Assembly (NCBI GenBank): GCA_935421135.1
Contig: OW285195.1
Location: forward strand, 15,824,158 to 15,888,157
Reading direction: 5' to 3'
Length of the DNA stretch: 64,000 nt
Source: Bugulina stolonifera
Taxonomy: Eukaryota; Bryozoa; Gymnolaemata; Cheilostomatida; Bugulidae
Shown here piece after piece: positions 1 to 52,488 of the stretch (position 1 is the first letter of the stretch; each line of letters begins with the position of its first letter). Made by a program: the position numbers and the translations under genes. A model generated the notes under the pieces. It saw only the letters and a list, made by a program, of their open reading frames with translations, did no database searches and was not told where the DNA came from.

Positions 1-1655
1 GCTTGATTGCTAGTATATATAAGACACGCAGTGTATAAGATAATAATGAATGCATGAATGAGTATGGATACGATAATGTCATGCATGGATAATAATGTCA
101 GCTATGATAATGTAAGTACGATAGGAGTACAGTTCGTGTCCAGGCAGGCTGTTTCATCACAAGTGGAAGTAAATGAGGTGGGTACATATTTACTGCAAAG
201 CCGATCACGGTCTGAAGGTGGGTACGCTCAGTAAGTCTGCGTGTACCCTCACTTCTAGCACTGACAGTTTACAGTAATGAAATTTAAATTTAATCTTTAC
301 TGATTGTATAAATTCTATCTAGATCAGCATTTTTTGTTTATCCTAAGCCCCAAGGACTGTAATGTATACTATCATACTCGTATCTTGTCTCTTTTCCATC
401 TTGACCTTTTAACTTGGCAACCATCAACACAGGCTTTACTTTAAACATTCTCTTTTATTCGTCCATGCTCCCATTATTATTAACAATACCACATGTGCAT
501 ACATGAATAGTACTTCTAATAATGATATTCCTAGTCATACTATTTCATTGAATGGTACCAGCAATAAAGAGAAACTGAGAGGTGAAATGTTAAAGTTAAA
601 ATACACATGACATTTGGATACAACAAGTAATGCAGACCCAAGCAGAAAAGGCATCCAAACATCCATCAGCAATCAAATTCGTAGACTAGACAGGCCTTGA
701 TAAACAACCTTAGTGAGAATGACGGAGCAAATTTGAGGAAATAAATCCACTTCAATTCATTGATTGAGAAAAGTTTCATCATGATGATGATCATCGTGGA
801 TCGTGGTTATGGCTTATTAAGCTAATACCTGAAGTAGGAAGGACGAAACCAAGTTGAAACTATTTAATTGCTGGAGAAGTTAAGATTTGCAAATATACAG
901 GCCTTCTCATCAAGCCAGTTAGCAATGCAAAAGATTGTGCAGAGTTGAGTGGAAACACCTACCTTTCAGTTACCTACTTCACTAGAAACGATACTGATTG
1001 GGTTTCCCCAGAAATGATGTCAAGATGTAGCTGCGTAAAAAGGCTATCATGACAAGAAATATGTGACTATAACTATTAATATATTTCTATGAACACGAAA
1101 AAGATTATATTTTAATAAGAGTTGCACTAGGTCCCAAAACAAATTTGTAATAGTAGTATTAATAAAAAGCTCATTTATTTGAGAGATTACTCAAGGGAGT
1201 GACAACTTCGATATAGCTACGTTGTATTTGAAAAGAGAGAACATAACTCCTTCCAAAAACAGCATCGTTTGTTTTATCCATACTAAACACAACACATATT
1301 ATTTTGAAGTACCAGTGGTTCACAATGAAAGCAATCAATGTAAATTTTTAGTACGTAGTAATATATAGATCAGTGCTCTGAATTAAATTGTTTTTCCACT
1401 CAGCGATAGTTGTATTTAGTTTGTTTTTTACACAGTGTCCTAGGTTATCTTGGTTGGCACTAGTCATGTATACATTCACAACATTACTTGCGTATATATT
1501 TATGCTGTTTAGTTCATTAAACTAGCAGTAGAACAATATAGGGATAAAATATTATTTTAATTAATATCTCTTTGTACAAAACAATCAAAACATAGTATTG
1601 CAAAACCTGGAAGGAGTATAAGCAAGAACAAAAATTCACTATCAAAGTTTTTTTT
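1..1655. other. No recognisable gene
   Basis: AT-rich DNA without a convincing open frame or known element on either strand. Its right part is the 3' flank of the minus-strand MRPL47 gene, whose stop codon lies at 1656-1658. An ATTAAA-like hexamer on the minus strand near 1557-1562 could serve as its polyadenylation signal, but this is weak. Confidence 0.5.
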
Positions 1656-4021
1656 CTAGTAAATGCCTTCTTTTTCATTCTCTTCCTTGATAAGCTGCTC
1701 TACGTCAGGGTTGGGGTCGAGACCAACCATCTTATTTCTACAATAATCTCTTAGGAACTCTGGGTCTTCTTCCAAGTGAGGATATTTCTCAATAAGCTTT
1801 TTATATAAAACTGACGCTTTAATTTGTTTGACAAAATTTCGTTTTCTTTCTTTTTCGTTCCACATAAGTTTATACTGGCGCGTCCAATCACCGAGATTGT
1901 CATATTTCTTTCTGTAATAAATAAATTAGATAGCAAAGTTATAAACAGTATAATACATGTAATTATCTATACTTACAATTGTAAATATCATTGTATAAAC
2001 AGTACACATGTAGTTATCTATACTTACAACTGTAAATATCACTGTATAAACAGTATACATGTAGTTATCTATACTTACAATTGTAAATATCACTGTATAA
2101 ACAGTATACATGTAGTTATCTATACTTACAATTGTAAATATCACTGTATAAACAGTATACATGTAGTTATCTATACTTACAATTGTAAATATCACTGCAT
2201 CTTTCAAGTTGGATATACAGTGTAGAAGGTAATGGTAATATCTATTAGAGACAACTAGTTGGCTTAATAGAGTATCAACTGAATGCGTTAGTTTTATCAT
2301 AACACTGAAACCATGTACATTACATCATACCATGTTGTCTTATGCAGCGCTACATTGTACAGTAGTGCTGGCTGATTTTGATTCGGCATCTTTTGCTGTA
2401 TTTCCAAAAAAACAGAATGATGCCAAAGTTGTCTGCTACTGCTCGGTTTCCCCACCTTTGGTAAAAGAACCGCATCAAATCGCTAATGCTCAATTTTGGG
2501 AGTTGTCACCCTCTACTTTCAACTAAGATGGCGGTCAATTTTATTTTTTAAATTGTTACTATTTAACACTAATATTTATAATACATACATGTAGGCCTTA
2601 GTCCAAGTACGAAAAACTGAGTAAAACTACAACATATCCCCCACTGGGTGACAAAAATGGTTGCAGCAGTCTGAATGGCAAGGATGATATCAAAGTATAA
2701 AGAATGAAAGAGGCACAATATGCATGAAAGTGTATGCGACACCAGCCACCGGAAATGGGCATGCTACGGAATGGAGACAACTCAAATATAAAAACTAAAT
2801 TGAATCGACCCGCCGCATTCGGTTTACATTTTGAAATTTCATGGATTTTTGACCCGAGAGAAAATGAAAACTGAATGATACCGAAACACTGGGCCTCACT
2901 ACTGTACAGTATGGAACCATGTATTTTATATCATAGTGTGATATACATGTATTCTATATCATAGTATGATATACATGTATTTTATATCATAGTGTGATAT
3001 ACATGTATTCTATATCATAGTGTGATATACATGTATTCTATATCATAGTGTGATATACATGTATTCTATATCATAGTGTGATATACATGTAGTACACATA
3101 CAGAAATTCCTCATTATGCTCCTTTGGTACAATATGTTCTTCTTCAAGCCTTCTGATTGGACGATCTAGTTCGTCTATGTCGTCAATCCACCTAGGATGT
3201 GGAGGCTCCCCTGTCTCCAATAGAGAGAGGGCAGCATTTCTCTGGTCCACAACGTCCCTTAGGTTATCCATGCTCACCTCTACCTACATGTAAGTACAGT
3301 GAGTACCGTAAGTACTGTAAGTACATGTAAGTACAGCAAGCAAGTAAGTACAGCAAGCAAGTAAGATAGTAAGTACATGTAAGTACAGCAAGCAAGTAAG
3401 TACAGTAAGTAAGATAGTAAGTAGGTAAGTAGGAAAGTAAAGGCACATAGGGGCCTAACAGTTTGGTTGTTGTACTCAAACTAGTACATAAAGTACATGT
3501 ATACGTATGTGTATATACAGCACATGTAGGTTACTACTAATAGCTTTACCTTTTCCAGCCGTTCAGGGGAGGGAAACTCTACATACAGCCTGTCATACTC
3601 CGCCTTCATAGTAAGTAGAAGATTCATCTCTTTAAGCAGTACATACCTGGTAGATAGTAAGTTAAAGGTACATGCCAGGTAGATAGTAAGTTAAAGGTAC
3701 ATACCTGGTAGATGGTAAGTTAAAGGTACATACCAAGTAGAGAGTAAGTTAAAGGGATATACCTGGTAGATAGTAAGTTAAAGGTACATACCAGGTAGAT
3801 AGTAAGTTAAAGGTATATACCAGTTCCATAACTGGTAGACAGATGTACATATCACTAAACTTGTGTAAACGTACCAGAGTTTATGAAGATCCTCATTACT
3901 ACGAGTCCTCAGCTCTGCCTTAGTCCACTGTCTCCCAACACTAATTGTAAAAAGTTCCCAATTCTCTTCATCATCAAAGAATTCATTCAAGCCGCATCTT
4001 TGGGATGTTGTGTGGATTTGT
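1656..4021 (-). CDS. MRPL47: Mitochondrial large-subunit ribosomal protein uL29m (MRPL47), first exon missing
   Basis: Mitochondrial ribosomal protein L47, the uL29 homologue, which binds near the nascent-chain exit of the mitoribosome large subunit. Four exons chain in phase on the minus strand: 4021-3875, 3646-3550, 3283-3102 and 1911-1656 (stop TAG at 1658-1656), giving about 227 codons. Seen: IHTTSQRCGLNEFFDD, where IHTT resembles the end of a mitochondrial presequence; then SNEDLHKLWYVLLKEMN, the family hallmark spanning the exon 2/3 junction; FPSPERLEK; and a basic C-terminal helix with NEKERKRN and KYPHLEEDP. The family is about 250 residues, so only a short first exon is missing; it should lie in 4022-5700 but I could not identify it. 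Introns are filled with short tandem repeats, and the exon 3 acceptor lies inside one array. The identification is strong; exact ends of internal exons rest on consensus and phase. Confidence 0.88.
1940..2215. repeat. Minisatellite, ~51-bp unit, about 5 copies
   Basis: Near-identical units containing CTGTATAAACAGTATACATG and TAGTTATCTATACTTACAAT. It lies in the last MRPL47 intron, about 30 bp upstream (in transcript sense) of the exon 5 acceptor at 1912. Confidence 0.9.
2930..3092. repeat. Minisatellite, ~28-bp unit, about 6 copies
   Basis: Units alternate ATATCATAGTGTGATATACA and TGTATTCT. The array abuts the MRPL47 exon 4 donor at 3101-3096 (GTATGT on the minus strand), so it begins directly at the 5' splice site. 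Confidence 0.88.
3284..3440. repeat. Low-complexity GTAAGTAC-rich array beside the MRPL47 exon 4 acceptor
   Basis: Irregular copies of AAGTACAGCAAGCAAGT and GTAAGTACATGTAAGTAC run directly up to the acceptor at 3284 of the minus-strand exon. Confidence 0.8.
3640..3836. repeat. Minisatellite, 29-bp unit, overlapping the MRPL47 exon 3 acceptor
   Basis: About 6.5 units of 29 bp. On the minus strand each unit reads CTATCTACCAGGTATGTAC or a variant of it. The exon-proximal unit supplies the real acceptor: exon 3 begins at 3646 after TACCAG. About half of the other units keep the AG; the rest read ACCTGG. Confidence 0.88.
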
Positions 4022-6100: not shown

Positions 6101-6105
6101 TCAGT

Positions 6106-9145: not shown

Positions 9146-12100
9146 GATTCTAAACATGCATCTTTATTAAAAGCTATACAAAGTTTGGATGGCAAGAAAG
9201 CTCCTATCACCCAAAGAAATGAGGCAGCTCTCAGGACATCAGAGTTCCATAACAGAGGTAGGCTGTTGTTGTTTAAACCTGTAAACTTACATGTATATCG
9301 CAGTGTTATCTGCAGCAGTGCGTCTTAATAGTTTAGTCAGATTTCAAGACAGGCATAGATCTCCAAGGTTGTGATTCGCAACCTTGTGATTGTGATTTGT
9401 GATTGATTCCAAACTCAGAATCCTTGATTCAAAGAGCGCTGGTGACCTTATAGTCGGTCAGCCGATTAGTTATTAAATACAGATAGTGTGAGTAGGCCTA
9501 CTAGTAACTATCACTTCTATGTAAAATTGGTCTAACTACAGACACTAAGAAAGTACACTTTGGTCAGCTACTGCAGTCGTTGGGCACATCCACCAGCCAG
9601 GATGTAAAGAAATACATTAAACAACAAGATGGATCTCGTAAACTTCCAGAACCTCTAGAGAGAATTCACGTCACCAAGGTACAATAATAATATACTGATA
9701 CTCATCTCATAATATTATAATTCACTGAATATGGTATGTCAGAGTGATGCTTGTATATTATACTGTACCAGGGAGATCTAGTAAGATATCTAGATTCTCC
9801 ATCTTCACCATTCTGGTAGCCTACTTCTATACAAGACTTCATGTATACTAATACCACGCTACTGTGTGTGGTTGCATTTCTTAGGCAGAGAGGTCAGTGC
9901 AGTACAAAGAGACTGCTGCAGAGGTTGAGAAATGGCAAACAATTGTAGAAGATAACAGGGTTGTACCTCAGTTGCAGTTTCCATTGGAGAGATCAAAGAT
10001 ATCTGTACCAACAGCGTAAGCATCTCTGATGTCTATAACTTCATCTACATTATATACTTACAAGAACAAGATAACAAACGTCTGTGTGTGGAATATGGCA
10101 GTGTAATTGCCTGAGTTTTGAAAATATTTTTAGGAAAAGAGAGGCTGAGTCACACCAGCCCCGCACTGCCATGGAATTGGAGATACAGGCTCTACTCAAA
10201 GGACCAGGTTTTGTAGCTGAACAGGCAGAGCAAGCAGCCAAACCAGTGCTGACCAAAGCAGAACAGCAAGCAATGAAGTGAGTGCATGAAATTCGTAGCA
10301 AGTAGCCCATGTGATCTATACAATATCTGTATGGTGTATTATTTTGTAATGTGCATGAGAACTATCTATTCTATTTTACCCTCTCAAGTCACATGACCTC
10401 ATTTCCTGTCTGTTGTTAGAGCAATGGATGTAGAAACAGCAAAGGAAGAGCTGGCGTTGAGGCGTAAGCACAGGAGGATGGTAGCAGACGTAGCCTCTAA
10501 AAATAGACGACAAGGGAAGATAAAAAGTCGGAGGTATAATTACTTCGCTGTTCTGTTTCTATATGAGCTGTTATAATATACTTACTGTGCCGTCTGTGCC
10601 GTTATGTCATACTTTGGTAGACAGTTCTGCCGTATGCCAAATGGTTATAATTTTATAATAATGTATTTTCATCTCTGATAAATATACCGTGTTTCCATGT
10701 GTGGATGTTTAGCTATCATAAATACCTCTGGTAAATATACCGTCTTTCCATGTGTGGATGTTTAGCTATCATAGACACCTGAAGATTGAGAGGAAAAAGA
10801 AAGCATTCAAAGCTCTAGAGAAACTGAGAGCCGACGACCCAGAGCTGTGGAAAGAGAAAGCAGAAGAGATTGAGAGAGCAAGAGTTGAGGTACGACTGTG
10901 CTTATAGGAAGTAGTTATACTCGTACTTACATCTACATGACTGTGCTTATAGGAAATAGTTATACTTACATCTACATGACTGTGCTGTTTACAGGAAAGA
11001 GCTACGCTTAGACACAAGGGTAAAAGTAAATTTGCAAAGTTGGCGAAGAGGTACGGAAAGTTTAATGAGAAGATTAAAGACTCTTTGGATGAGATGAGGG
11101 CCAAGGTATGTACTAAGTATTATATAATACATTACATAGGTCACCCACTAAGTATTACGTAATATATAGGTCACAGGTAGATATTACATACATATATATA
11201 GGTCACAGGTAGATATTAACATACATATATATATAGGTCACAGGTAGATATTACATACATATATATAGGTCACAGGTAGATATTCATACATATATATAGG
11301 TCACAGGTAGAAATTACATACATATATATAGGTCACAGGTAGATATTCATACATATATATAGGTCACAGGTAAATATTACATACATATATATAGGTCACA
11401 GGTAGATATTACATACATATATATAGGTCACAGGTAGATATTACATACATATATGTAGGTCACAGGTAAATATTACATACATATGTATAGGTCACAGGTA
11501 AATATTACATACATATATATAGGTCACGGGTAGATATTACATACACATATATGTTACAGGGAGTAGAACTGATGACTAAGCAAGCAGAGGAAGACTCGGA
11601 GAGTGAGAGTGAAGGAGAGATGAGGGAAGATGTGAACATGGAGGAGGATGAGAGTGACGACAGTGGAGAGGAGACAACTTCTTGTTTGTCTGTTTCTGCC
11701 AGTAATCCATGGTTGAGTGGCAGTAAGTATGCTGATAGTTGTAGCAGTAGTAGCGGTGGGGGTGGCAGTAGTAGTTAGTACATGCAGTAACCACATGTAC
11801 ATGTATGTTGACGCTGATATGGAGTACCATGTCATGTCCTGAAAACTCTGTATATCGATAGCCTGGGTTCCTAAGTACACTTTGCTCTATGTAGAATTAT
11901 CAAAGGAAGCTCCACCCCAGCCTCTACTCAACACGCAGGCATTTGATGAAGCGTCAAGTGAGGATGAGAATCCTGTTGAAGAAGTGACTGACGCCCCCAC
12001 CTCTGGTGGTAGTCATACACTAGTTACTCAGGCTACTACCGGTCATGTAACACGTATACCAACAGCTGACAGTAGTAGCAGTAAAGAAAGGAAGACAGTA

Positions 12101-15713: not shown

Positions 15714-18700
15714 CTATTCTTGTACGTCTATAATAAGCGGAGCCTCGTATTGAGTATGTCGGATACCAAAGCTGTAAGCAGGTGCTGACTTCCTTGACAC
15801 GATAACCTGCAGATAAACCAAACATGCAGGTAAGGAGGATACCATTGTGCACTATATTGAATTACTAACTATTTTATTATTACCTCTCTAATTCTTGCTT
15901 GTGACATGTAGAATAGTTATTTCTAACAATAATGGCCAAAATATAAACTCCATTGATAAGAAAGACTGAAGATGCCTGCGCATTGATCTTGTGTTGGCAG
16001 ATGACACAGAGTAATGACATCACGATAGGGCGGAGAAGAACAGCTGCCACTCACAGTTGTTAGTGACTTACCCTCTCAGGAGAGTGGGCTCCAGGTCCAG
16101 GTTTTTGTGTGTTATCACCAGGCATACCATTCCTACTTGTCATACTGTACTCAGGTCTCTTCTCTTTGAAAGTACTCGGGTGTGTTGTGTTATAAGCTCC
16201 TGGCCCTGGAGTCTTCCTCAAGTCCTCGTGGAATCCTCCGATCTTACTTCTACCGGTTAGAGAGTAACACGGAGCTTGTTTCTTACCACTCTGTTTAGTC
16301 TGCCCAGTCATTCCTGCAACAATAACACATACCTATACCTACTACTGTGGCCATGTAATACTACACTACATACCTACTACTGTGACTATGTAGTACTACA
16401 TACAATATACCTACTACTGTGGCTATGTAATACTACACTACAATATACCTACCACTGTGACCATGTAATACTACACTACAATATACCTACTACTGTGGCC
16501 ATGCGATATCACACTAAACGCCTTGAGTCATTAGTAACAGCGGTTGTACTTCTACAATCGAATGCTTAGGATGACCATACCAGTTCTGCAGCAGTAGTAG
16601 ACCTGAACTAATGGTACATTTGTTTATGACCAGCAAAGACTGTCAGTATCCAAGTATGATTAGTCAGTAACACCAGCGTCGTTCGATAATAGAACAAACA
16701 TGAGTAACCAGTCAACGTATTAGTATTACGGTTTAGACTGTATTTACCAGGAAGTGTGTAACCATTTGGTGCCGGAGTGTTGTCCGATCTCCTGTGTCTA
16801 TGTCTGCTACCGAAACTATAAGCTGGATGTCTGAAGTACCCCATCTGACCAGTAGCTTCGGGTTTGTATGCCCCAGCACCAGGTACGTTGAATCTACAAC
16901 CAGTTAAACAGAATGCAGTGATGAAGCACAAGTATATCTGCATTCACTGCCTATACGACATCAAGTAAGCCGATTATACTTTCTTTCTCTGCAAGAGGAG
17001 GTTACAAAACAGTCAGGTTTTTTCTCCCATTTGATTCCGCAATGTGAGTAGAGGTTCACTGGCAGATTTATCGGCTACAGGTAAAAATCTTGCATCTGAA
17101 GAAATCCTGTTTCACTAAAACTTTTCTACGCTAATATCCTCAGGTAGAGGTCAGTGTATCATCAATCTCAACCCTATATGAGTCGCATATTGAGTGATCT
17201 GCCATAGCTATAAGAAGAAAGGTTTGCACCTTGATGAGGTGGTATTACTGCCGTAGCTCCACTATATAACATCATGACGATGAGCTCTGTGTACTAGTAG
17301 GCTACATGTACATAGCGTATGTAGGTGAGTGAGTGGTAGGGGTACGTGCTACTCATGTTATCACTTACGCTGAGAGGTCGGCATTCCGTGAGTAGAGAGA
17401 GTAGTGAGGTGTTCCATCAGTACCATCTCTGAAGATCTTTGGGTTGGGGAGGTAAGCTGGTCCAGGACTACAGTCGTCTACATACTTACCATGGTGTATA
17501 CCTACATATTATATAACAGTATATAGGTCATACTTACCATGGTGTACACCTATGTATATAACAGTATATAGGTTATACTTACCATGGTGTACACCTACGT
17601 ATATAACAGTATTTATATAGGTCATAGGCCTACTCATACTTACCATACTTATTACTTGTACTTATACATACATGTACAACAGTATGTAGGGTGGTTAAGT
17701 ACTTATACATACATATACAACAGTATATAGGGTGGTTAGGTACTTATACATACATGTACAACAGTATGTAGGGTGGTTAAGTACTTATACATACATGTAC
17801 AACAGTATATAGGGTGGTTAAGTACTTATACATACATGTACAACAGTATATAGGGTGGTTAAGTACTTATACATACATGTACAACAGTATATAGGGTGGT
17901 TAAGTACTTATACATACATATACAACAGTATATAGGGTGGTTAAGTACTTATACATACATATACAACAGTATATAGGGTGGTTAAGTACTTATACATACA
18001 TATACAACAGTATATAGGGTGGTTAAGTACTTATACATACATATACAACAGTATGTAGGGTGGTTAAGTACTTATACATACATATACAACAGTATATAGG
18101 GTGGTTAAGTACTTATACATACATGTACAACAGTATATAGGGTGGTTAAGTACTTATACATACATATACAACAGTATATAGGGTGGTTAAGTACTTATAC
18201 ATACATATACAACAGTATATAGGGTGGTTAAGTACTTATACATACATATACAACAGTATATAGGGTGGTTAAGTACTTATACATACATATACAACAGTAT
18301 ATAGGGTGGTTAAGTACTTATACATACATGTACAACAGTATATAGGGTGGTTAAGTACTTATACATACATATACAACAGTATATAGGGTGGTTAAGTACT
18401 TATACATACATGTACAACAGTATATAGGGTGGTTAAGTACTTATACATACATGTACAACAGTATATAGGGTGGTTAGGTACTTATACATACATGTACAAC
18501 AGTATATAGGGTGGTTAGGTACTTATACATACATGTACAACAGTATATAGGGTGGTTAAGTACTTATACATACATATACAACAGTATATAGGGTGGTTAA
18601 GTACTTATACATACATGTACAACAGTATATAGGGTGGTTAAGTACTTATACATACATGTACAACAGTATATAGGGTGGTTAAGTACTTATACATACATGT

Positions 18701-21599: not shown

Positions 21600-21955
21600 A
21601 TGCACAGGTGAGTATAGATAACAAAAGGTAGATGTAGCGTAGGTACAGGTGTATGTAGAAAACAGGTATGTGTAGTGTAGGTACAGGTAGATTATCTGGG
21701 TAACAACAGGTAGGTGTAGTGTAGGTACAGGTATATGTAGGTAACAGGTAAGTGTAGTGTAGGTACAGGTACGTAAATGTAGGTAACAGGTAGGTGTAGC
21801 GTAGGTACAGGTATATGTAGGTGACAGGTATGTGTAGAAGTGTACCTAGATACAGGTATACTATGTAGGTAACAGGTACTGTTGTGTAGGTACAGATATA
21901 ATATATGTAGGTAACAGGTATGTGTAGTGCAGGTACAGTACATGTAAGTAAGTAC
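21600..21955. repeat. Minisatellite, ~38-bp unit, about 9 copies
   Basis: Units contain GGTGTAGTGTAGGTACAGGT and ATATGTAGGTAACAGGTA. The equivalent array in the second duplication unit (25905-26135) has fewer copies. Confidence 0.9.
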
Positions 21956-22589
21956 AGGTCTCAACCATCTATGTCAGGGGACAGAGAGAATTGTCATTAT
22001 AACAGATCAAAAGTCAACCAATTTTAGTTTTTACACTATCAAATCATTATTCATACTACAATGTAGCATATTATGTACAAACTCAAACAATATGAATGTA
22101 CAGAAACATATTGACCATGGAGGTAGTACCTAAAACCTAGGTAGGGAGAGCATTGTTAGTGCAATGAACTGATTAGGCTATTCCCTCCCCATCTGGTGAT
22201 GCATATATTTAGTAACTAGAGCTACGCAGTCTGGTTGTCTAGTAACCAGCAATGCTCAGTGACTGTGAACTGATTGTTATTGAGATGGTCAGTTATAACA
22301 AGGGGAGATAATAAATAGATATGAACGATGATAAAGCAAAAAATGCAACTAGTCCATAATTGAACTTAGAATAAACTAAAGGTATTCATTGGCAGATTGC
22401 CAATGTATTATATCATCATGTACTGGCAAAGATCCAGATTCTTTTGTAAGTTCTTGGTAATTGCAGGGATAGAAAGCTAGTATAAGATTCGTTTGAACTA
22501 ATCATGATCATTGTTTAGTTACGAAGGCATAGTTACGAAGGCTTAGTTACAAAGGGAGACGCAGCTGTTTCTGTATCTTACAGGATAGA

Positions 22590-24260
22590 ATGGGTTTCAT
22601 AAGAGAAGTCAGTCTGCTGCTAGTCCTACTGCTTGCTGCAGACGTGTCATGTGACAGGAAGTATCAGCCAATCATAGGGGTGCTTCTACAACATATCGGT
22701 GTCCCCATATGTCACAGTAAGCACAGTTTAATCTCAAACTACTTTGGGTGTCTCCGTGACCTCTTGGAATGAGCTGACCTGACCGAAAAATGGCATTTTG
22801 AATTAGACGTGATTTAAAAGCTTGCAACTTCAGTGTAAGGAATGATTTGGGAAATTCCTGGCCATATAGCATCAAAAGAAGCAAATTGTCTTGTGAGAAA
22901 ATGAGACGCAGTTGTGTGTATTTTGTATTGAGTTCATACGATTGAAGACAGCAGTTGATAGGCAAGCATGTCAGTTGTTGAGTTCAGATAATGAAGCTGA
23001 AATACAGAGTATGTGTATAAGAATCTTTTTTGTTTTAGAGCAATACGCAATGAGCAGATACGATTTGTTCATTAAACAGGGTGGTGCCAGTAGCGTCCCC
23101 ATATTTGTTGATCAACCAGACAGCTACTATGAACATCTGATACCCAGGCTAAACGGCGTCCTATTACCAGGTGGAGGCATTGAAAACATCGTAACCTCAC
23201 CTTTTGCCAATGTCAGCAAAAAGATATTTGAGTAAGTTAAGAGTTGTCTTCTCTACCAACCTATTCATGGTTGTATTGTACATGTATATCTATGTACATG
23301 ACAACATTTATGATGTCAATAGAGAAGCTCTGAAAGTCCAATACGGTTACAACTCACGGCATGCGGAAGTGAGCTGACCATTTGAGAGTTGTCCTTAACT
23401 GAGCAATCAAGAAATACAACTTCATATAAAAAGTACAGTCACACTCCCATATTACCTTATATAGAATTGATTTACTGTAACATCTAACAGGTCTGACTAT
23501 GAAACGATGTGCTAACTAACAAAATAGTGTTTGAATGATTGTAATAATACCCAACACTTTCAAGAAAGGAATAGTCTGAAGAAAATCTCTGTATATTTAT
23601 TGTAGCCTTGCGATGAAGATGAACGACGCAGGCCACCATTTTCCTGTGTGGGGAACATGTCAGGGACTCGAAGAAATGACTACTCTCCCTCTGCAGCCGC
23701 AGAGAGATGTGCTCACCAACTGTACCGGTACAGAAGGCGTCTTGCTTCCTCTCAACTATACGTCTGCTGCCAGAGACAGCAAGTTGCTGAAGGGATTGCC
23801 AGCACAGCTAAGAGAGGCGTTGGGCAAGGAGAAGGTTACTCCCAACTACCACAGTCTCTGCCTGTCGATGGACACCTATAGAAAGACTAAACAACTGAAT
23901 GAGTTTTACACAGTCCTCTCAACCAATAGGGACAGCAGAGGTTTAGAGTTTGTCTCGACTATGGAGGCCAAGGAATACCCTTTCTATGCACTCCAGTGGC
24001 ACCCAGAGAAGATCAACTTCCACTTTGTGACATCACTAAACAATGACCCAAGTCTGAATAGCATCTTGATTGCCCAGTACTTCGGCAACTTTTTAGTGCA
24101 GGAGGCAAATAAGAACAGCAATAGTTTCAAATCGGAAGCAGAAGCCAATAGGTTCCTGTTCGCTAACTACCAGACGAAGTTTGATATGCTGTTCGGTTCA
24201 TCTCATGACATTTACTGTTTGGACAGCTCCCAAGTTCCCAAGTTTGACAGCAATTATTGA
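22590..24260 (+). CDS. GGH: Gamma-glutamyl hydrolase, copy 1
   Basis: Gamma-glutamyl hydrolase (folylpolyglutamate hydrolase, peptidase C26) removes glutamates from folylpolyglutamates in lysosomes or after secretion. Three exons in phase: 22590-22716, 23039-23231 and 23606-24260, giving 324 residues against about 318 in human. Seen: signal peptide MGFIREVSLLLVLLL.AADVSC; first strand PIIGVLLQ; PGG in VLLPGGGIENI; catalytic cysteine in FPVWGTCQGLEE; EFVSTMEAKEYP; catalytic histidine in ALQWHPEKINF; and a C-terminal ANRFLFANY block. The glutamine-amidotransferase-like Cys and His are both present, so it should be active. Bases before the ATG (CTTACAGGATAGA) look like an acceptor, suggesting a 5'-UTR intron. 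It forms a tandem pair with the copy at 26305. Confidence 0.95.
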
Positions 24261-25904: not shown

Positions 25905-26135
25905 TAACAAAAGGTAAGTGTCGTATTGGTAACAGGTATGTGTAGTGTAGGTAAAGGTGTGTGTAGGTAACAGACAGGTGTAGTGTAGGTACAGGTGTAT
26001 GTAGGTAACAGGTAGGTGTAGTGTAGGTATAGGTATATGTAGGTAACAGGTAGGTGTAGTGTAGATACAGGTATATGTAGGTAACAGGTAGGTGTTGTGT
26101 AGGTATGTAGGTAGCAGGTAGGTGTTGTGTTTTCA
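25905..26135. repeat. Minisatellite, ~38-bp unit, about 6 copies
   Basis: Same family as 21600-21955 (GGTGTAGTGTAGGTA with TATGTAGGTAACAGGTAG). Its position in the duplication unit is conserved, but the copy number differs. Confidence 0.88.
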
Positions 26136-26304: not shown

Positions 26305-28068
26305 ATGGGTTTCATAAGAGAGGTCAGTCTCCTGTTGGTCCTACTGCTTGCTACAGACGTGTCATGCGACAGGAAGTATCAGCCAATCATAGGAGTGCTC
26401 CTACAGTATGTAGACATCCCCATATGTCAGAGTAAGTACAGTCTAATAATAACAACGTATAATCTTGAACCAGTGATGACCTCTTGTAATGAATTGACCC
26501 CACTGAAGTAGACTGGTTCGTTTGTAACTTCTATGTAAGAAATGATTGGGTAAATTCTTTTCCATACAGTATATAGAACGGGGCAAACACGGCCTTGTAA
26601 AAAAATGAGAAGCAATGTGTGTATAGAGTTCATACAAGCGAAGACAGCCAATTACTACATACTACATTTTATAGTAGTATATTGTACAAGTCATAGGCAG
26701 ACATGTAATGCTATATATAGCATACATGTCTGCAGCTATATACTCTACTGGATATTGAGTTCAAGTGATGAAACTGAAATACAGAGTATGTGTAGAAGAA
26801 TCTTCTTTGTTGTAGAGCAATATGCGTCGAGCACATACAACTTGTTCATTGAACAGGGTGGTGCCGGTACCGTCCCCATATTTGTTGATCAACCAGACAG
26901 CTACTATGAACAACTGATACCCAGGCTAAACGGGGTCTTATTACCAGGGGGATTCCTTGAAAACTTCGTAACGTCACCTTTTGCCAATGTCAGCAAAAAG
27001 ATATTTGAGTAAGTTGAGAGTTGTCTTCTCTATCAACTCTGCCTGACAACAGACGTTACAACGGTAATAGTTGTTGTATTTTAAATATATACAGTTAAAC
27101 ACTCGACGATACTTAAGATAATCAATAGACAGTCTCATGTGGTCCGATACGGTCACGACATGCAGGTGTGAACTGACCATTTAAAAGTTGTCCAATTGAG
27201 AATTTTGAGCAATCAAGAATTTTAATTAATACAAAAAGTGCAGTCACACCTCCATATTACCTTATATGGAATTCATTTATTCTGATATGGCACAGCTCTT
27301 ACTACGAAATGATGCGCTAAGCTAGAAGAAGACGTTTGGATAACTAGTAATAATACCCAACAATAGAAAGGAATAATTTGAGCAAGATTTTAGTATCTGC
27401 GTATTTATTGTAGCCTTGCGATGAAGATGAACGACGCAGGCCATCATTTCCCTGTGTGGGGAACATGCCAGGGGCTCGAAGAAATGACTACTCTCCCCCT
27501 GCACCCCCAGAAAGACGTGCTCACAAACTGTACCGGTACAGAAGGTGTCTTGCTTCCTCTCAACTATACGTCTGCTGCCAGAGACAGCAAGTTGCTGAAA
27601 AGATTGCCAGCACAGCTAAGACAGGTGTTGGGCAAGGAGAAGGTTACTCCCAACTACCACAGACTCTGCCTGTCGATGGACACCTATAGAAAGACTAAAC
27701 AACTGAATGAGTTTTACACAGTCCTCTCAACCAATAGGGACAGCAGAGGTTTAGAGTTCGTCTCGACTATGGAGGCCAAGGAATACCCTTTCTATGCACT
27801 CCAGTGGCACCCAGAGAAGATCAACTTCCACTTTGTGACATCGCTAAACAATGACCCAAATGTGAATAGCATCTTGATTGCCCAGTACTTCGGCAACTTC
27901 TTAGTGCAGGAGGCAAAAAAGAACAGCAACAGTTTCAGGTCGGAAGGTGAAGCCAATAGGTTCCTGTTCGCTAACTACCAGATGAAGTTTGATAAGCTGT
28001 TCGGTTCATCTCAGGACATTTACTGTTTGGACAGCTCCCAAGTTCCCAAGTTTGACGGTAACCATTGA
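26305..28068 (+). CDS. GGH: Gamma-glutamyl hydrolase, copy 2
   Basis: Tandem paralogue of the gene at 22590, with the same three-exon structure and exon lengths (26305-26431, 26816-27008, 27414-28068; 127, 193 and 655 nt), encoding 324 residues. The signal peptide MGFIREVSLLLVLLL is retained, as are the catalytic cysteine in VWGTCQGLEE and histidine in LQWHPEK. In the last exon I count about 16 substitutions over 215 residues against copy 1, many in surface-type positions (Q/H, R/K, G/R, S/R near the middle; K/R, T/M, M/K near the end). No frame breaks occur, so both copies look functional. The same putative 5'-UTR acceptor (CTTACAGGATAGA) precedes the ATG. It is convergent with the SLC22A18-like gene. 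Confidence 0.95.
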
Positions 28069-32200: not shown

Positions 32201-35200
32201 ACCTACCTTACTGTTACCCACTACATATACATAACCTACCTTACTGTTACCTACTACATATACATAACCTACCTTACTGTTACCTACTACATATACATAA
32301 CCTACCTTACTGTTACCCACTACATATACATAACCTACCTTACTGTTACCTACTACATACACATAACCTACCTTACTGTTACCCACTACATATACATAAC
32401 CTACCTTACTGTTACCCACTACATATACATAACCTACCTTACTGTTACCTACTACATATACATACCCTACCTTACTGTTACCTACTACATATACATAACC
32501 TACCTTACTGTTACCTACTACATATACATAACCTACCTTACTGTTACCTACTACATATACATAACCTACCTTACTGTTACCTACTACATATACATAACCT
32601 ACCTTACTGTTACCTACTACATATACATAACCTACCTTACTGTTACCCACTACATATACATAACCTACCTTACTGTTACCCACTACATATACATGTATAC
32701 ACACATAGAAACTTACTACAAGTATATAGGCGACAGTGGCTATTACTGTACCAAACCTCATCAGAGCCATGTCCGAGTATTTCTTAGTAAGTATACCGAC
32801 TCCAACACCTTGTACTAACTAAAACAACATACATATTATATACATATAAATACACACAATCTAACGGTAGACCTACATGTACTTACTACAAATTTGGGCA
32901 ATTATAGGTCAAGAAAACATTGCTCAAAGTCCCCAATTAACGTAAAATAACTGCGATGAAGATAGGTCAAGCACCAGTCTTAGAGTTTTAAGAGCAACCT
33001 AGTTTGGTCCACAGAGAGTAGAATATACTTGATATTTATAATAAATCGTGCCATTTTGTAGACAATATGATTATTGTTTGAGCAAACAACTAGAATGAGT
33101 CTGTAGCCAATCATAATGCTGAAATGTTACTTACAACCTTCACACAAATACATACAAATAAATGCATTTTTTCAATCTAAGCTTTGAATATTGAATTAAG
33201 GTTGCTGGGCTGGTGTATTGGTAATGCTAGACGATTAGATGCCGTAAAGGTCCCGGGTTCATATCCCAGTCAGGGTTGGGTGATTTTGTGGACGTGGAAT
33301 TGAGTTGCTGAATGATTTATAGATCATCAAACAAAAAAATATTTGGAGAAAGTCAATTAATTACAAGAAATAAATGACTCACCATTGAAATAATGCCTAT
33401 GTATGACATGACTCACCATTGAAATGATGCCTATGTATGACATGACTCACCATTGAAATGATGTCTATGTATGACATGACTCACCATTGAAATGATGTCT
33501 ATGTATGACATGACTCACCATTGAAATGATGCCTATGTATGACATGACTCACCATTGAGATGATGCCTATGTATGACATGATGAAACCGTTGTAATTGGC
33601 TGGCAATGAGAATTGATCAATAGCCACTCGAGAGAATACACTTTGTAACACACCAATCGGTATTCCTGTAACAGAGGTCAGAGCTTATAATGAAATAGAG
33701 GTCAGTGCTAATAATGAAATAGAGGTCAGTGCTAATAATGAAATAGAGGTCAGTGCTAATAATGAAATAGAGGTCAGTGCTAATAATGAAATAGAGAGAG
33801 AGCTGCACAGCATTGAATAGAAGCGGCAAGTTGAGATATGATTGAATATCATATGATACAATATAAGATTATACATCACTAGCTAATTCCAAATGAGATG
33901 CGACAAAAAGAACAGAGTTATCCTCTCTATATCTATCTAACAATGTACATTGTGAAATTGAAATAGAGGGTGCATAACAAACTAGCCATACACAACCAAA
34001 GAAACACCTTACAAACATGGTGTGTGTGTAGATAGTATAGGTATATACTTTCTAGGTATAAATAAATTAATATGTTGTCAAATAAGTTTAAGTCTATTCG
34101 ATACTGCTTGTTATTACATAATATATACGTATAGATACTACTATCGCATGTTATTACATAATATATACGTATAGATACTACTACCGCATGTTAATACATA
34201 ATATATACGTATAGATACTACTACTGCTTGTTATTACATAATATATACGTATAGATACTACTATCGCATGTTATTACATAATATATACGTATAGACACTA
34301 CTACAGCATGTTAATACATAATATATACGTATAGATATGAATCCTGCCAGTATAGTGTATAAATAGAGTTTATAGAGGATGAGTATGTAATACCTTCATG
34401 CAATATCAGAGAATAAACCCCTATCAATACATGAACAAAGGTACTATATACCAAATGTGTTCATTGAGATGATGTGATATGAGAGATGACACGACACCTT
34501 AGGCTGCCACTGAGAGTTCCAATATGGCAGCTCTAACTGCTAACTGAGTGACCGTGTTCAAATCTCACCATACCACAAGATCGCTTCTGATTTATACTAA
34601 TACTATACGTATATTATATTTTATATATACACGTGTACAATGTATTTACACATACAGTACTTACTATATAATATACATGTATACTGACTGAATACTCACC
34701 TACTACTATCTTAACTGCCATGAGGAAGGCTGCCCCTTTATTACTGAATAGTTTTGTTATCTCTTTTACACTGAACACATTGGCTACCTTCTGATCTGTA
34801 GAGATCAATAGAATACAATGTTATTTACAATGAGATCATATCTTTAGAGATCATGAGAGCAGGTACAAAGACTCAATACTAAAAAGTCAGGATTCTATAC
34901 CCAGTAGGGAAACTAGTAGGACTGTGATATTCTGATCCATAGCATTGTGGGAACAGTTGATCAGCTGTTAACTTATTATACCAATATATAACGACTATCA
35001 AAATACATGCATTACAATTAACAACATCCATCCACTATACATTCTTGTATTGCAGAATATCTATCAAGCATGTTACTGCGATTACTTTACTGAAATATGA
35101 ATATGGGTAGCCATGAACTCAGACCAGAGAGCTCCGTGAGAAGAATGGTGATAGATGACCTACCTTCGACCTTGACATGCTTAACATGTTTAGGTACAAA

Positions 35201-38039
35201 GTAGAGAGTTATCAGAATGCTAATTAGAGATCCGGCTGCTGCTGTCAGAGCCGCTGCTTCCTCCCTACAAACAGCAGTAGTTACATGTAGGTAACTGTAG
35301 TAACAACAGTGGTAGCAGCAGTAGGTACATGTAGGTACGTGTAGGTATGTAGGTACATGTAGGTATGTAGTAGTCAGGTAACTGTTGTTTGATTTGACGA
35401 ATAATCGTGGAATAGATTGAAAATACATCTTGATAATTTCAGCAGGCAAATCCAGACCGGCGAATGTAACATTTTCAAAATGCAATATTATCATAGACCT
35501 CTGATACTGCTGGTCATATACATATGATATATATAATAGTATTATACATAGTAATAGAGTTACCCAAATGTTTTGGTAATCTGCCCTCCCAGGGCAGGTC
35601 CTATCACCATTCCAATACCATAAAATAGTCCTAGTTTACCAAGTGCATCAGCCCTCCTCTCCTGGGCTACCAAATCTGTTATAACCATCTGACTACCTAC
35701 GTATTATATAACATACTATGTAGGCACAACATATATGCTGATAGTACCTGTGTGTATATAACATACTATGTAGGCACAACATATATGCTGATAGTACCTG
35801 TGTGTATATAACATACTATGTAGACACAACATATATGCTGATAGTACCTGTGTGTATATAACATACTATGTATACTATGCACATTGTATATGCTTTATGC
35901 AGACTAGCCTGTCTATAGAGATCTACAAGACTAACAGTGTATATCTTGTATGACAGCCAAATGTTGAATAAGAAGCTCCACATGTGTCAAAAACTAAAAT
36001 CAATCATTTAAGGTTCAACCACTGACCACTGACCTTGCATACAGGCGAGGAAGATGGATAGGAACCTGGACAGGAAGAGCATTGGTATGTTTGCCGCTAG
36101 ACCTAACGTAGTATATGTGAGAACTCCGCTACCGAATGCTATACTCAGAGCTGCCCTCGCACCAAACAAGTCTCCAAATCTACAGCATGAATCATAGGAC
36201 TAGGATATTGATGGTAAGTAGCCACTCTACAGTATGTATGTCACCTAGAAACAGTTTGATAACTAACAAGTACTACTAGTAATTATTATAATTACTAGTA
36301 GTAGTACTACACTAAACATTTTATATACACTTGTACACTCTTACTATTAGAGAAAGTTCCCACCTGCCAAACACTGGTCCACCTGCAAGCTGTGCCACAG
36401 CGAAGGCCGTCTGAAGGTAACCATATGTAATAGTGTCCACTCCCAGCTTCTTACTCATGTACTGAAATATTACAGACAGGGATTTACTGAATCACTGAGT
36501 GTATATATTACGCTGTATAATGTGTACCAGATATTCGACATTCAGTTCTCATGCAGCATGACTAGTCGATGTATCATAAGTCTCTGTAGAACGTTTACTG
36601 AAAGAGTGGATTGGGAAAAGATCTGATACTCCTCACCAACGGTCTAGTGGTGGGTATATCTGTGAGCCGGCTAGGTGATTATCTGCCGTCAAGTCTTGTT
36701 TTGAAAGTCCTGCTAGAGATGGACTAATTCAACATTGGCACTTACAGCTTGCCATATATAGTATAGCCTATATACTTACAGCTTGCCATATATAGTATAG
36801 CCTATATACTTACAGCTTGCCATATATAGTATAGCCTATATACTTACAGCTTGCCATATATAGTATAGCCTATATACTTACAGCTTGCCATATATAGTAT
36901 AACCTATATACTTACAGCTTGCCATATATAGTATAGCCTATATACTTACAGGAAAGCAGGATTGCTGAATCCAGAAACAAGCTGCATATAGAATTACATT
37001 GAGCTGAACTATTCTCATCACAAAGTCAGGGTTGAAACCTTTGATAGTCTTCCGCTCCCCTTCATCAGCTGCACTTCCACCTAAATCAGTGACTAGACTT
37101 TGCAGTATGATAGTGATGTGAAGTTCGATCATAGTGTGAAGGATATTATAGCAAATTAAATCAACAGTCAGTGTACACTAAAAGGTGAGATTCCATAGTA
37201 TGTGACTAGGTCTACAGAAGTACAAAGATCCACGCAACACCCAGGTGCAAACAGAGTGTCTATGGGGGAGATCAGGTTATCGAAGGTGGAATCAGTAAAG
37301 AATGTCTACCCCAAACCTTCATGTCCAACCCAACATTTCATGTCAATCAATTTAACAAATCAGAGACAAAGCCTACACTACAAAATCTCGGTACGGAGAT
37401 TCAATTCTACAACTAGTGCTGAGGCATAGTCATGTCAGAGGTTCACAATTGTACTGATTGTTACGGATTGAACAAAATCATATTAGGTTTGAGCGATATG
37501 TGAGACTCGGTATGTAGTTCAACGAGAGCATTACTTTTATCTGAATCCATTTCCCTCTGTGTTTCGCTGATGACAGAATTCACTGACGACTTTGGCTGTG
37601 AAGTTGTACGTACCCTAGCAGTGCTATCTACTCAAATATAACCAATATATCATGCGAATCAAGACAAGAATATTCAAATATGTTTTTGTAAGAATAAGGG
37701 ATTCCATCTAATCTGATAGTGAGATCAGCAAAAAGTAAAAAACAGGAAAAACTTTGATTATTAACAATTGTTAAGTACATACAATGTATAAATAATTACA
37801 AGGGCATGCATGCTGCAACATAAACATTACTAGCAGCAAGTAATATGATGCATTTTTCTTGAAATTTCAACATAAAGACAATAGCCTACTTGATAACATG
37901 GAGAGATGGAAGTAATAAAAACACCCAAGTGTCTCCCACATGCAAGTATCTCCAACATAGTCACATTGTATGAAGCCAATTAGTCATAGGCACAATTAGA
38001 ATTTAAAAAAGCCAAACTAAACTTACCATTATCATTCAT
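29231..38039 (-). CDS. SLC22A18: SLC22A18-like major facilitator superfamily transporter
   Basis: A 12-TM MFS carrier resembling SLC22A18 (ORCTL2/TSSC5), a polyspecific transporter whose substrates are poorly defined. Eleven exons are complete and in phase on the minus strand: 38039-38027 (only 13 coding nt, MNDN), 37080-36950, 36461-36364, 36179-36034, 35696-35564, 35264-35164, 34795-34700, 33665-33553, 32818-32717, 29720-29600, 29388-29231 (stop TAG). Total 403 residues against about 424 in human. Seen: YMSKKLGVDTITYGYLQTAF and GGPVFGRFGDLFGARAAL (TM2-TM3 MFS loop); GSQMVITDLVAQERRADALG and LGLFYGIGMVIGPALGG, the closest family match; a central loop KHVKHVKVEDQKVANVFSV; and TVSSRDTGTMIGLSMATNS near the C-terminus. 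The gene is divergent from ACAT1. Its introns hold at least seven tandem arrays, several on splice junctions. Family assignment is firm; orthology is likely, not proven. Confidence 0.9.
29945..32690. repeat. Very large minisatellite, 33-bp unit, about 83 copies
   Basis: Units combine TAACCTACCTTACTGTTACC and (C/T)ACTACATATACA. It fills the intron between transporter exons 9 and 10. Because 33 is a multiple of 3 and the minus-strand frame has no stop, the array is translatable as an 11-residue repeat (YVYVVGNSKVG) in continuation with exon 9, an open frame of 944 codons (32770-29936). The array starts about 30 bp after the exon 9 donor. Confidence 0.97.
33201..33280 (+). mobile_element. tRNA-like sequence, possible SINE head or tRNA pseudogene
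   Basis: Contains an A-box-like TGGTGTATTGG (33211-33221) and a B-box-like GGTTCATATCC (33256-33266), spaced as in RNA polymerase III promoters of tRNA genes. A T-arm with one mismatch can be drawn (CCGGG/CCCAG). The acceptor stem does not pair, so a working tRNA is unlikely. It lies in the intron between transporter exons 8 and 9. Confidence 0.4.
33376..33580. repeat. 34-bp array of exon end plus donor (transporter exon 8)
   Basis: GACTCACCATTGA starts at 33376, 33410, 33444, 33478, 33512 and 33546. On the minus strand each unit is the last 27 nt of exon 8 followed by donor GTGAGTC. The copy at 33546-33552 is the functional donor; five extra copies follow in the intron. Confidence 0.93.
33666..33800. 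repeat. Minisatellite, 24-bp unit, about 5 copies, at the acceptor of transporter exon 8
   Basis: Units read AGGTCAGTGCTAATAATGAA plus ATAG. On the minus strand the array's pyrimidine run TGACCTCTATTTCATTATTAG resembles the real acceptor TGACCTCTGTTACAG at 33666, which forms the last, diverged unit. Confidence 0.88.
34100..34340. repeat. Minisatellite, 40-bp unit, about 6 copies
   Basis: Units contain TTATTACATAATATATACGT and ATAGATACTACTA(T/C)CGCATG. It lies in the middle of the intron between transporter exons 7 and 8, not at a junction. Confidence 0.92.
35697..35885. repeat. Minisatellite, ~54-bp unit, 3-4 copies, at the acceptor of transporter exon 5
   Basis: Units contain ACATACTATGTAGGCACAAC and ATATATGCTGATAGTACCTG. 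On the minus strand each unit has TATATACACACAGGTACTATC, resembling the real junction TATAATACGTAG|GTAGTCAG. Confidence 0.85.
36741..36950. repeat. 34-bp array carrying the donor of transporter exon 2
   Basis: CTTACAGCTTGCCATATATA recurs every 34 bp (36741, 36775, and so on). On the minus strand each unit starts CTGTAAGTATATAGGC. The exon-proximal unit (36945-36950) is the functional donor CCT|GTAAGT; six further copies lie in the intron. Confidence 0.92.
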
Positions 38040-38783: not shown

Positions 38784-43762
<4,979 letters not shown>

Positions 43763-47150: not shown

Positions 47151-47330
47151 GGCTGCCAAACTGGCGACTGCCGAACTGGCGACTGCCGAACTGGCGACTG
47201 CCGAACTGGCGACTGCCGAACTGGCCACTGCCGAACTGGCCACTGCCGAACTGGCGACTGCCGAACTGGCGACTGCCGAACTGGCCACTGCCGAACTGGC
47301 GACTGCCGAACTGGTCACTGCCGAACTGTA
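47151..47330. repeat. Minisatellite, 15-bp unit, about 12 copies
   Basis: CTGGCGACTGCCGAA repeated, with GCC/GTC variants. It is GC-rich in an AT-rich setting and open in several frames because the unit is a multiple of three. Confidence 0.95.
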
Positions 47331-47354
47331 GTACATTATTACATTTCATGTTGG

Positions 47355-47510
47355 CAACAGTCAATACTATGGGATAGTTGGAGTATGCATGCATGTAGTA
47401 CTTGTACTGTAAATACTATGGAATAGTTAGAGTATGCATGCTTGTAGTACTTGTACAGTCAATACTATGGAATAGTTGGAGTATGCATGCGTGTAGTAGG
47501 CCTACTTGTA
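47355..47510. repeat. Three tandem copies of a ~55-bp unit
   Basis: Each copy contains AATACTATGGAATAGTTGGA and GTATGCATGC. It lies directly downstream of the 15-bp array. Confidence 0.88.
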
Positions 47511-48121
47511 CTGTAAATTTTATGAATTTGCATTAGAAACAGTTAGAAACAGGACGTTCTGAAAACATTTGAACCCCAAACCCCATCCGGTAATACAAGT
47601 GTCCACCATGGTCTCTCACTCCTTTATACATTCGTAAATCATAACACATGCTGCCTTTACACACAGTTGGCAGGTTTGCACACACTTGGCTGGTCTGTAA
47701 GTGTGCCTTTCTAGAGTTGTCTACTCTACTCCTCTGTTATGTAACAAGTGATAGAGTATTATATAAACCTGTGTACATACTGTAAGCTGTAATAACTGAA
47801 CTAGTGAACCTGATGATAGCTTAAGCTAAGACTATACAATACCATATAATTATCATAATAGAGTACACAGTTATGTAGTGAATACAGTTACATAACAGAA
47901 CCATGAATTACATGACTCCATCTTTCAACTAAAGGGAATAATACAATGGGTAATGACAGAAAGGACCAACTGTGTACATTGTTGGACTGACTGGTATCAC
48001 ATAAGGTCACACCTACATGTAGCTTGCTCATTTAGTTTTAGAATGAGCTGCAGACAGTGCAGACACCAGAAGTCTCCCAAGACTGAGAGTATTGAATTGA
48101 ATAGCCTCAGATCTACGTAAC

Positions 48122-51100: not shown

Positions 51101-52488
51101 GAGTATGTCTGTAGTTATGTAGTTGACAAGTGGCAAATAGGATACTTCATCTGCTTACTATCAGAGAAATGAAAAGACAATAGGACTAACAAATATATCG
51201 GTGAACATGTTGTGCTGGGATACTCTGCGTCGTGTTCCGTCATATGTATTATGATAGGAAACCCTGTGACACGTTCCAACAGATGCTAGAGTGTGCTCTC
51301 TATACATCTATACATGCATATATTGTGATAGGAAACCCTGTGACACATTCCAACAGGTGCTAGAGTGTATTCTATATACATCTATATATTGTGATAGGAA
51401 ACCCTGTGACACGTTCCAACAGGTGCTAGAGTGTGTTCTATATGCATCTATATATTGTGATAGGAAACCCTGTGACACGTTCCAACAGGTGCTAGAGTGT
51501 GTTCTATATGCATCTATATATTGTGATAGGAAACCCTGTGACACGTTCCAACAGGTGCTAGAGTGTGTTCTATATACATGGAAGAGAGGACTACCAGACA
51601 GACATTGGGAACCTCTCACTACACGCTGTGATATCTGTACCATTCCGTATCACTACTTTGGTAAGTACCACCACTACTGTATGTTACTTGTACAATTCAT
51701 AGTACAGTACGTTACTTGTACAATGTATAGTACAGTACTATACATTGTACAATGTATAGTACAGTACTATACATTGTACAATGTATAGTACTGTACGTTA
51801 CTTGTACAATGTATAGTACAGTACTATACATTGTACAATGTATAGTACAGTACTATACATTGTACAATGTATAGTATTGTACTATACATTGTACAATGTA
51901 TAGCACAGTACTATACATTGTACAATGTATAATACATTTTAATATATACATAGTCTGACATGGTGAAATTAGCTTTTATAACATTTTTTCAAACAGATCA
52001 GTTCAGATGATTGGCTAGTAGGCTAGTAGAACATGATCAGTTAAGGCAGAATCTGACCAAATTTACAATTTGAAAAAAATATTATTACTTCAACGTGTAC
52101 TTTTAGTTGAAATCTGCATGTTTTACTCCTACTAATACTAACGTTATTGATAACTTACTGCTTATACAATGTATCTTATATTATTATATCAATGACTATT
52201 TTAAAGGAATAGCGTAGCTTATTTTATATCGATGACTATTTTAAAGGGAGAGTGGAACTTATGAACGAGGAGATAACTGAGATATTTAGACAATCTGGAG
52301 TCAAAGGAAACATAACCTCATTTCTACATTCAGTGAGAGAGCAAGCTATACGGGAGGTAGAGGTGAAGTCCACACATGTAGATTATAGAGACTATTATAG
52401 AAACATTCCACAGTCTATAATTGATGACTTGAGTGTCATGTATAGACTAGATATTCAACTACTGGGGTACCCAGACCTCCCTCTGTGA
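48122..52488 (+). CDS. Carbohydrate sulfotransferase, HNK-1ST/CHST8-14 family
   Basis: Golgi type II membrane sulfotransferase (Sulfotransfer_2 family: HNK-1ST, CHST8/9, CHST11-14), which transfers sulfate from PAPS to glycan chains. Six exons in phase: 48122-48418, 49124-49232, 49824-49954, 50932-51077, 51530-51660, 52247-52488 (stop TGA), 351 residues. Seen: short basic cytoplasmic tail, then one TM segment (YYICLVIFCSLLIIHFLLF, about residues 20-38); 5'-PSB-type loop AKGGSSFWKNLFLHR; 3'-PB motif FGRNPWNRLVSLYRQK; DRHWEPLTTRCDICTIPYHY; and C-terminal YYRNIPQSIIDDLSVMYRLD with IQLLGYPDLPL, the family's closing signature. The PAPS-binding serine and arginine are present. I cannot say which glycan it sulfates. 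Exon 5 has four upstream partial copies including its acceptor; three are in frame. Exon 6 has one duplicated acceptor. Confidence 0.9.
48505..48775. repeat. Minisatellite of hairpin-forming ~59-bp units, 5 copies
   Basis: Each unit contains GTAGTCTAGTGTATGC, then TAGACA, then GCATACGCTGGACTAC, an almost perfect inverted repeat, followed by ATTTTATATACTCAT. It lies in sulfotransferase intron 1. Confidence 0.93.
49955..50150. repeat. Minisatellite, 38-bp unit, 5 copies, starting at the sulfotransferase exon 3 donor
   Basis: Units read AGTAGTAATAGCCTGGGTTC followed by TAAGTACCTCTAGTGACA. The first unit starts inside the donor (AAG|GTGAGTAGTAATAG); later units read ACAAGTAGTAATAG. Confidence 0.9.
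51258..51529 (+). repeat. Four upstream partial copies of sulfotransferase exon 5 with acceptors
   Basis: GATAGGAAACCCTGTGACAC occurs with exon-type starts at 51258, 51332, 51398, 51464 and 51530. Spacings are 74, 66, 66 and 66 bp. Units at 51332-51529 keep the reading frame of exon 5 open; each encodes 22 residues, including KPCDTFQQVLEC, then LYASIY-type sequence. Confidence 0.94.
51700..51935. repeat. Palindromic array of GTACAATGTATAGTACAGTA units
   Basis: About 29-bp units in which TACATTGTACAATGTA is a perfect palindrome and TAGTACAGTACTA is nearly so. It lies in the last sulfotransferase intron and is predicted to form hairpins or cruciforms. Confidence 0.9.
52186..52262. repeat. 40-bp tandem duplication of the sulfotransferase exon 6 acceptor
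   Basis: TGACTATTTTAAAGG occurs twice, 40 bp apart. The first copy continues AATAGCGTAGCTTAT, the second GAGAGTGGAACTTAT (exon 6). The second AG (52245-52246) is the functional acceptor. Confidence 0.85.

Follow-up and report, generated by a model that had tools for sequence, protein, structure and literature searches.

Minisatellite-like tandem repeats lying over 5' or 3' exon-intron boundaries have been described from several unrelated genes of amphioxus under the name "mirages" (PMC3087553, PMC3902484). Their units measure 10 to 72 bp in Adh3 and about 150 to 160 bp in the globin genes (PMC3087553), many units keep the AG or GT splice signals (PMC3087553, PMC3902484), and further cases are PGBD5, which is described, and troponin C, which is cited (PMC3902484). 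The amphioxus arrays are unstable in length, with somatic instability at Adh3, reverse transcription-PCR suggests regular splicing across them, and they have been proposed as a model of intron gain (PMC3087553). That introns can be gained when AGGT-containing sequence is tandemly duplicated is an idea of Rogers, with a case in the potato RNA-dependent RNA polymerase (PMC4974935, PMC3087553). Here, we describe arrays over splice junctions in a 64,000-nucleotide (nt) stretch of the genome of Bugulina stolonifera, a cheilostome bryozoan (PMC10213821); this stretch (C9:15824158-15888157), hereafter called the window, belongs to chromosome 9 (contig C9), some 0.5 Mb away from its end, in a genome of 235 Mb and 27 contigs.

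Judged on DNA-level features alone, the Bugulina arrays are mirages of the amphioxus type. As in amphioxus, the units hold the exon-intron boundary together with exon sequence (at 7 of 11 junctions in the window and in 16 of 61 sampled arrays), are of comparable size (15 to 66 nt, one also 132 nt by Tandem Repeats Finder [TRF], against about 10 to 160 bp), occur at donors and acceptors, and keep the AG or GT signal, with a copy of equal or better score inside 13 of 19 arrays. They differ in belonging to another phylum, Bryozoa, and in that their frequency is compared here with placement in introns, and whereas length and somatic instability and undisturbed mRNA are reports from amphioxus, the Bugulina arrays are known from the DNA of one haplotype. 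With AGGT-based intron gain they share a tandem duplication that copies a proto-splice site, but the introns that carry them are of ordinary length once the arrays are subtracted. The initial annotation of the window had matched such arrays to no described system; the amphioxus mirages are one. The number of arrays spanning a junction looks like that given by random placement with tolerance, at roughly one in four of the sampled minisatellites of introns, and we consider it probable that they are ordinary tandem duplications of a compact genome, kept since the exon-proximal junction stays intact.

Arrays at splice junctions in the window

Arrays are found at all of the eleven junctions for which the initial annotation had claimed them:

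3639..3823, minus strand: 29-nt array at the MRPL47 acceptor, exon edge 3646, whose unit includes 8 nt of exon
10673..10780, plus strand: single tandem duplication of 53 nt at a UTP14 acceptor (Pfam Utp14), exon start 10766, with 15 nt of exon
11162..11552, plus strand: 32-nt array at a UTP14 acceptor, exon start 11560, stopping 7 nt short; weak, 2 nt shared
17481..17612, minus strand: 45-nt array at an acceptor of an ODF3-like SHIPPO-repeat gene (Pfam SHIPPO-rpt), exon edge 17501
33374..33581, minus strand: 34-nt array at an SLC22A18-like donor, exon edge 33553, with 29 nt of exon
33673..33796, minus strand: 24-nt array adjoining an SLC22A18-like acceptor, exon edge 33665; intronic only, 0 nt of exon
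35705..35872, minus strand: 50-nt array adjoining an SLC22A18-like acceptor, exon edge 35696; the site is matched only in degenerate form, 0 nt ungapped
36740..36951, minus strand: 34-nt array at an SLC22A18-like donor, exon edge 36950, with 2 nt of exon
40223..40650, plus strand: 34-nt array at the ACAT1 acceptor, exon start 40636, with 15 nt of exon (VYIGN)
51243..51579, plus strand: 66/132-nt array at a sulfotransferase acceptor (Pfam Sulfotransfer_2), exon start 51530, with 50 nt of exon
52179..52262, plus strand: single duplication of 40 nt at the next sulfotransferase acceptor, exon start 52247

The shared exon length is the ungapped match of each junction to its copy one period into the intron; the TRF extent permits indels. 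At the ODF3-like acceptor, a small indel interrupts the match, leaving 0 nt of ungapped shared exon with a TRF array that extends 21 nt into the exon, and at sulfotransferase 52247 small changes leave 1 nt, with an array reaching 16 nt into the exon. Exon copies of 8 nt or more are present at 7 of the 11 sites, these two being included only when small indels are allowed. Of the claimed range of 2 to 50 nt of exon per unit, the upper end is reached at 51530; at 33665 there is no exon copy, and at 35696 the match is degenerate. The donor at 36950 had been listed as a clear case and does not stand as one, since its 2 shared nucleotides, like those at 11560, are at chance level for the exon side, though its intron side matches at 19 of 20 positions. 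The acceptor at 11560 (given as 11559) had rightly been called weak, and the single duplications described at UTP14 10766 and sulfotransferase 52247 do cross their acceptors. Five donors inside the array at 33553 score equal to the presumed functional one, and the ACAT1 array contains 10 register copies of its acceptor, all scoring slightly lower than it.

Gene models were predicted with a two-strand exon-intron hidden Markov model trained on the window, its C9 flanks and a 200-kb sample of contig C1 (C1:5000001-5200000), the claimed sites not being supplied. The model called 17501 and 33553 exactly and 10766, 11560, 33665, 51530 and 52247 with a difference of no more than 1 nt from the claims; after retraining, 40636 was gained and 33553 lost. 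The junctions at 3646, 36950 and 35696 were missed in all runs, and homologous proteins back all three.

In total, homologous proteins confirm 5 of the 11 claimed junctions (ACAT1, MRPL47 and three of the SLC22A18-like gene). The ACAT1 junction reads QEVYIGN against KEAYMGN in the human protein, without a gap. Across 3646, MRPL47 reads HKLWYVLLKE, of which WYVLLKE aligns ungapped to human MRPL47, with the same stretch in a relative, P0121. The SLC22A18-like protein, whose best relative among the matches listed is from the bryozoan Watersipora subatra (69% identity), is ungapped across 36950 (FP|YM), 35696 (MQ|GSQMV) and 33553 when aligned to four homologues. A PDB search with the sulfotransferase gave no relative. 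For ACAT1, MRPL47 and the SLC22A18-like gene, the residues encoded by the exon part of the unit are conserved across other animals, and for this reason the exon is likely the source and the array unit the copy.

Arrays of this kind are not peculiar to one region, because the C1 sample also carries them, in GPAT-like (55253), ACE-like (78547; Pfam Peptidase_M2) and NOC3L-like (177731) genes, the last with a junction that aligns ungapped to human NOC3L; the initial annotation, which spoke of many genes of one region, was too narrow here. In the C9 flanks, arrays span donors of a leucine-rich repeat gene, a DUF4139/DUF4140 gene (three donors), a C1GALT1-like gene (81713; junction ungapped, though a gap of one residue lies 7 residues upstream) and an SLC6 transporter (95370). 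At a donor of the DUF4139/DUF4140 gene, an array with a 30-nt unit extends over 3.6 kb, between about 10.5 and 6.9 kb to the left of the window; its register copies of the donor number 101, and 18 score equal or better. Eight array-bearing junctions from the window, the flanks and the C1 sample are backed by homologous proteins, and six junctions whose arrays copy at least 8 nt of exon fall in protein alignments that are gap-free at the junction.

Frequency of spanning arrays compared with chance

Frequencies were determined in the C1 sample and in a 124-kb C9 stretch consisting of the window and its flanking DNA (C9:15804158-15928157). Arrays were found with TRF, those of period 15 or more and TRF score 80 or more forming the intronic set. 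Full masking of arrays in the gene finder displaced exon edges in ODF3 and ACAT1, the ACAT1 edge being the homology-confirmed one, and masking was therefore relaxed. We counted 247 introns in which both flanking exons score 2 or more, containing 61 intronic arrays.

Junctions are rare inside arrays. In the C9 stretch, 12 of 206 junctions (5.8%) lie in arrays, compared with 30.3% of intronic positions, and in the C1 sample 3 of 288 (1.0%) compared with 4.5%, so that the enrichment over random intronic positions that the initial annotation had proposed as a check is not seen, junctions being about five times less frequent in arrays. As this position-based comparison is dominated by long arrays, a test counting one event per array was added. 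Each array was placed randomly on the array-free intron, with an overhang into the exon of up to one period, an extent at which one junction remains whole after a duplication, and arrays reaching 5 nt or more into the exon were scored as spanning; the null thus assumes how much exon overhang is harmless. The result was 16 spanning arrays of 61, against 14.8 expected (P=0.41), with 12 against 11.3 in C9 and 4 against 3.6 in C1. Similar values were obtained without masking (11 of 56 against 12.7, six arrays being dropped), when homology was used to define the MRPL47 and SLC22A18-like introns as well (16 of 61 against 15.0) and after removal of two doubtful models (14 of 59 against 14.0), these being 73240, a short model, and 131554, a gag-like element. 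With full-period overhang, the ratio of observed to expected was 0.7 to 1.1 in all 12 settings (masking "none" and "inner"). This supports the proposal that arrays are tolerated at junctions, and the stronger proposal, that arrays start from junctions, is not supported as a strong process, spanning not being in excess; the excess of array edges near junctions described below leaves room for a weak bias.

Tolerated duplications as the favoured explanation

Short tandem duplications would arise at many places, and those within exons would mostly be purged; exon positions lie in arrays at 0.9% in C9 and 0.08% in C1, against the 30.3% and 4.5% of intron positions. The anatomy of the arrays suggests that a unit covering a junction would leave one complete exon-proximal junction on an intact exon and add only intronic sequence. 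The mRNA could then remain unchanged, and a junction duplication would behave as any other duplication in an intron does. Slippage or unequal exchange may subsequently lengthen it into a ladder of splice-site copies, of which splicing would use the exon-proximal copy.

The introns themselves are consistent with this explanation. After subtraction of the arrays, array-bearing introns have median lengths of 257 nt in C9 (n=37) and 313 nt in C1 (n=13), close to the 272 and 327 nt of array-free introns. With this ordinary remaining length, the arrays look like additions to ordinary introns rather than makers of new ones, and the length speaks for old introns.

Several results weigh against tolerance as the whole explanation. 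When the overhang counted as harmless is cut to half a period or to 20 nt, spanning arrays are 1.25 to 2.0-fold in excess (24 settings, under the same two masking modes), and a junction bias of up to about two-fold is possible. Under full masking, which misplaces the homology-confirmed ACAT1 edge, spanning falls below expectation, at 2 of 29 against 6.0 for the window with 20 kb added and, in C1, at 3 of 20 against 3.6; these counts used an earlier null in which other arrays were left in the intron, and the array-free-intron null gave the same main result. The harmlessness of the copies to splicing is assumed and not obvious, because an in-array copy scores equal to or better than the presumed functional site in 13 of the 19 spanning arrays scored (the 16 counted and the window sites 3646, 33553 and 36950), ACAT1 being among the six without. 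It follows that site strength alone does not explain the choice of site. Loss of wrongly spliced mRNA and exon definition are general candidates for what does.

The positions of array edges belong to the same side of the argument. An edge no more than 50 nt from a junction is seen in 44 of the 61 arrays when the spanning ones are counted too, against 33.6 expected (P=0.0003; C9 34 against 24.8, C1 10 against 8.8), and an edge at -4 to +30 nt is seen in 22 arrays, against 12.7 expected (P=0.002). The latter excess is present in both stretches, with 16 against 9.3 in C9 (P=0.01) and 6 against 3.4 in C1 (P=0.08; without masking 6 against 2.7, P=0.03), increases to 25 against 13.0 with homology-set introns, and amounts to 1.4 to 2.4-fold over 36 settings (P from below 0.001 to 0.06). 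It does not fit pure tolerance. Nor does it come from a gene finder drawn to arrays, because the calls persist after in-silico deletion of the surplus copies, done in two ways: identical calls were returned at 21 and 20 of 22 junctions with near arrays and at 23 of 23 with far arrays, and, in at least one way, at 14 of 16 spanning junctions. As a speculation, deletions near exons might be purged more often, so that arrays there would live longer.

Alternative explanations

A process acting on splice-site DNA, such as slippage or recombination at AG|GT or splicing-linked damage during transcription, might start arrays preferentially at junctions. The edge excess at -4 to +30 nt would fit it, and one array of the C1 sample (178062-178273, in the NOC3L-like gene) ends 30 nt inside the intron and holds a clear copy of that junction in its unit. 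The strand of short motifs points the same way in part: AGGT occurs in the units of spanning and near arrays 22 times in sense and 7 times in antisense orientation, compared with 3 and 5 in far arrays. Other strand tests over the 61 arrays are mixed, with GTAAG at 7 sense and 8 antisense, CAGG at 11 and 11, a donor score with P=0.37 and an acceptor score with P=0.02, to which the spanning arrays contribute a junction by definition. Near arrays also do not resemble their own junction when array bases are excluded (7.23 against 6.73 permuted, P=0.09; 1 of 22 near and 1 of 23 far arrays at the 5% level). A reading of the near arrays as decayed junction copies (7.95 against 6.49, 5 of 22) held only while the flank contained array bases and was dropped. 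Together with the lack of a spanning excess under full-period tolerance and the rarity of junctions in arrays relative to random intronic positions, this makes such seeding unlikely. A weak but genuine junction bias in the birth or survival of minisatellites, by which a large proportion of those in introns copy or hug the neighbouring junction, is in our judgement still rather improbable, though less so.

The copied sites could instead be retained for their function, as buffering of splicing, as regulated alternative sites or for recursive removal through AG|GT ratchets. The frequent in-array copies of equal or better score would suit such ladders, as would CAGGT, which can be read as both acceptor and donor and is found in the 61 units 10 times in sense and 2 times in antisense orientation. 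With spanning arrays not in excess and the amphioxus mirages reported not to disturb regular splicing (PMC3087553), we regard retention for function as very unlikely. Least credible of all is an artefact, either of repeat assembly or of a gene finder that drew exon edges towards those of arrays. Tandem arrays are generally error-prone, 2 of the 16 spanning cases are in the doubtful models named above, and the results shift somewhat with the masking mode; against this, the assembly (tzBugStol2.1) was built on 52-fold HiFi reads (PMC10213821), the junction calls largely survive the deletion of surplus copies, and eight array-bearing junctions have the support of homologous proteins.

Other features of the stretch and the genome

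TRF arrays of period 15 or more cover 15.7% of the window and 5.1% of the C1 sample. Tandem-repeat cover is 19.7% in the 124-kb stretch near the C9 end and 5.6% in the C1 sample, and the high value is possibly a chromosome-end effect.

Related AGGTATATGTAGTGTAGGTAC-type arrays are located at window positions 21615-21959 and 25910-26130, ahead of tandem gene copies at 22590-24257 and 26305-28065, which presumably resemble gamma-glutamyl hydrolases. Array and gene may have been duplicated as one unit. At window positions 60788-62893, an open reading frame encodes a reverse-transcriptase domain (Pfam RVT_1) and apparently belongs to an element like a long interspersed nuclear element. Elsewhere in the genome, C10:2299887-2450441 harbours a tandem cluster of U2 small nuclear RNA hits with a spacing of about 2.4 kb, containing 41 of the 46 scored (from 14646 first-look candidates).

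Significance

Among the literature matches listed, none concerns bryozoan minisatellites or junction arrays, which is no proof of their absence; the terms tandem repeat, minisatellite, satellite and intron are likewise missing from a bryozoan genome paper (PMC13326412), again without proving absence. What is new here is the phylum, the density of the arrays and the test against chance. Mirage-like arrays extend to a bryozoan, in which they make up about a quarter of the sampled intronic minisatellites. Because this frequency looks like the neutral expectation, the junction-copying arrays are likely a by-product of the turnover of intronic minisatellites and not a special system.

Introns with up to about 100 register copies of one donor are natural experiments, and HiFi and RNA-seq data for the species are publicly available. 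If the weak junction bias is true, such ladders of equal-strength sites, some of them readable as AG|GT ratchets, would test how the spliceosome chooses among identical sites.

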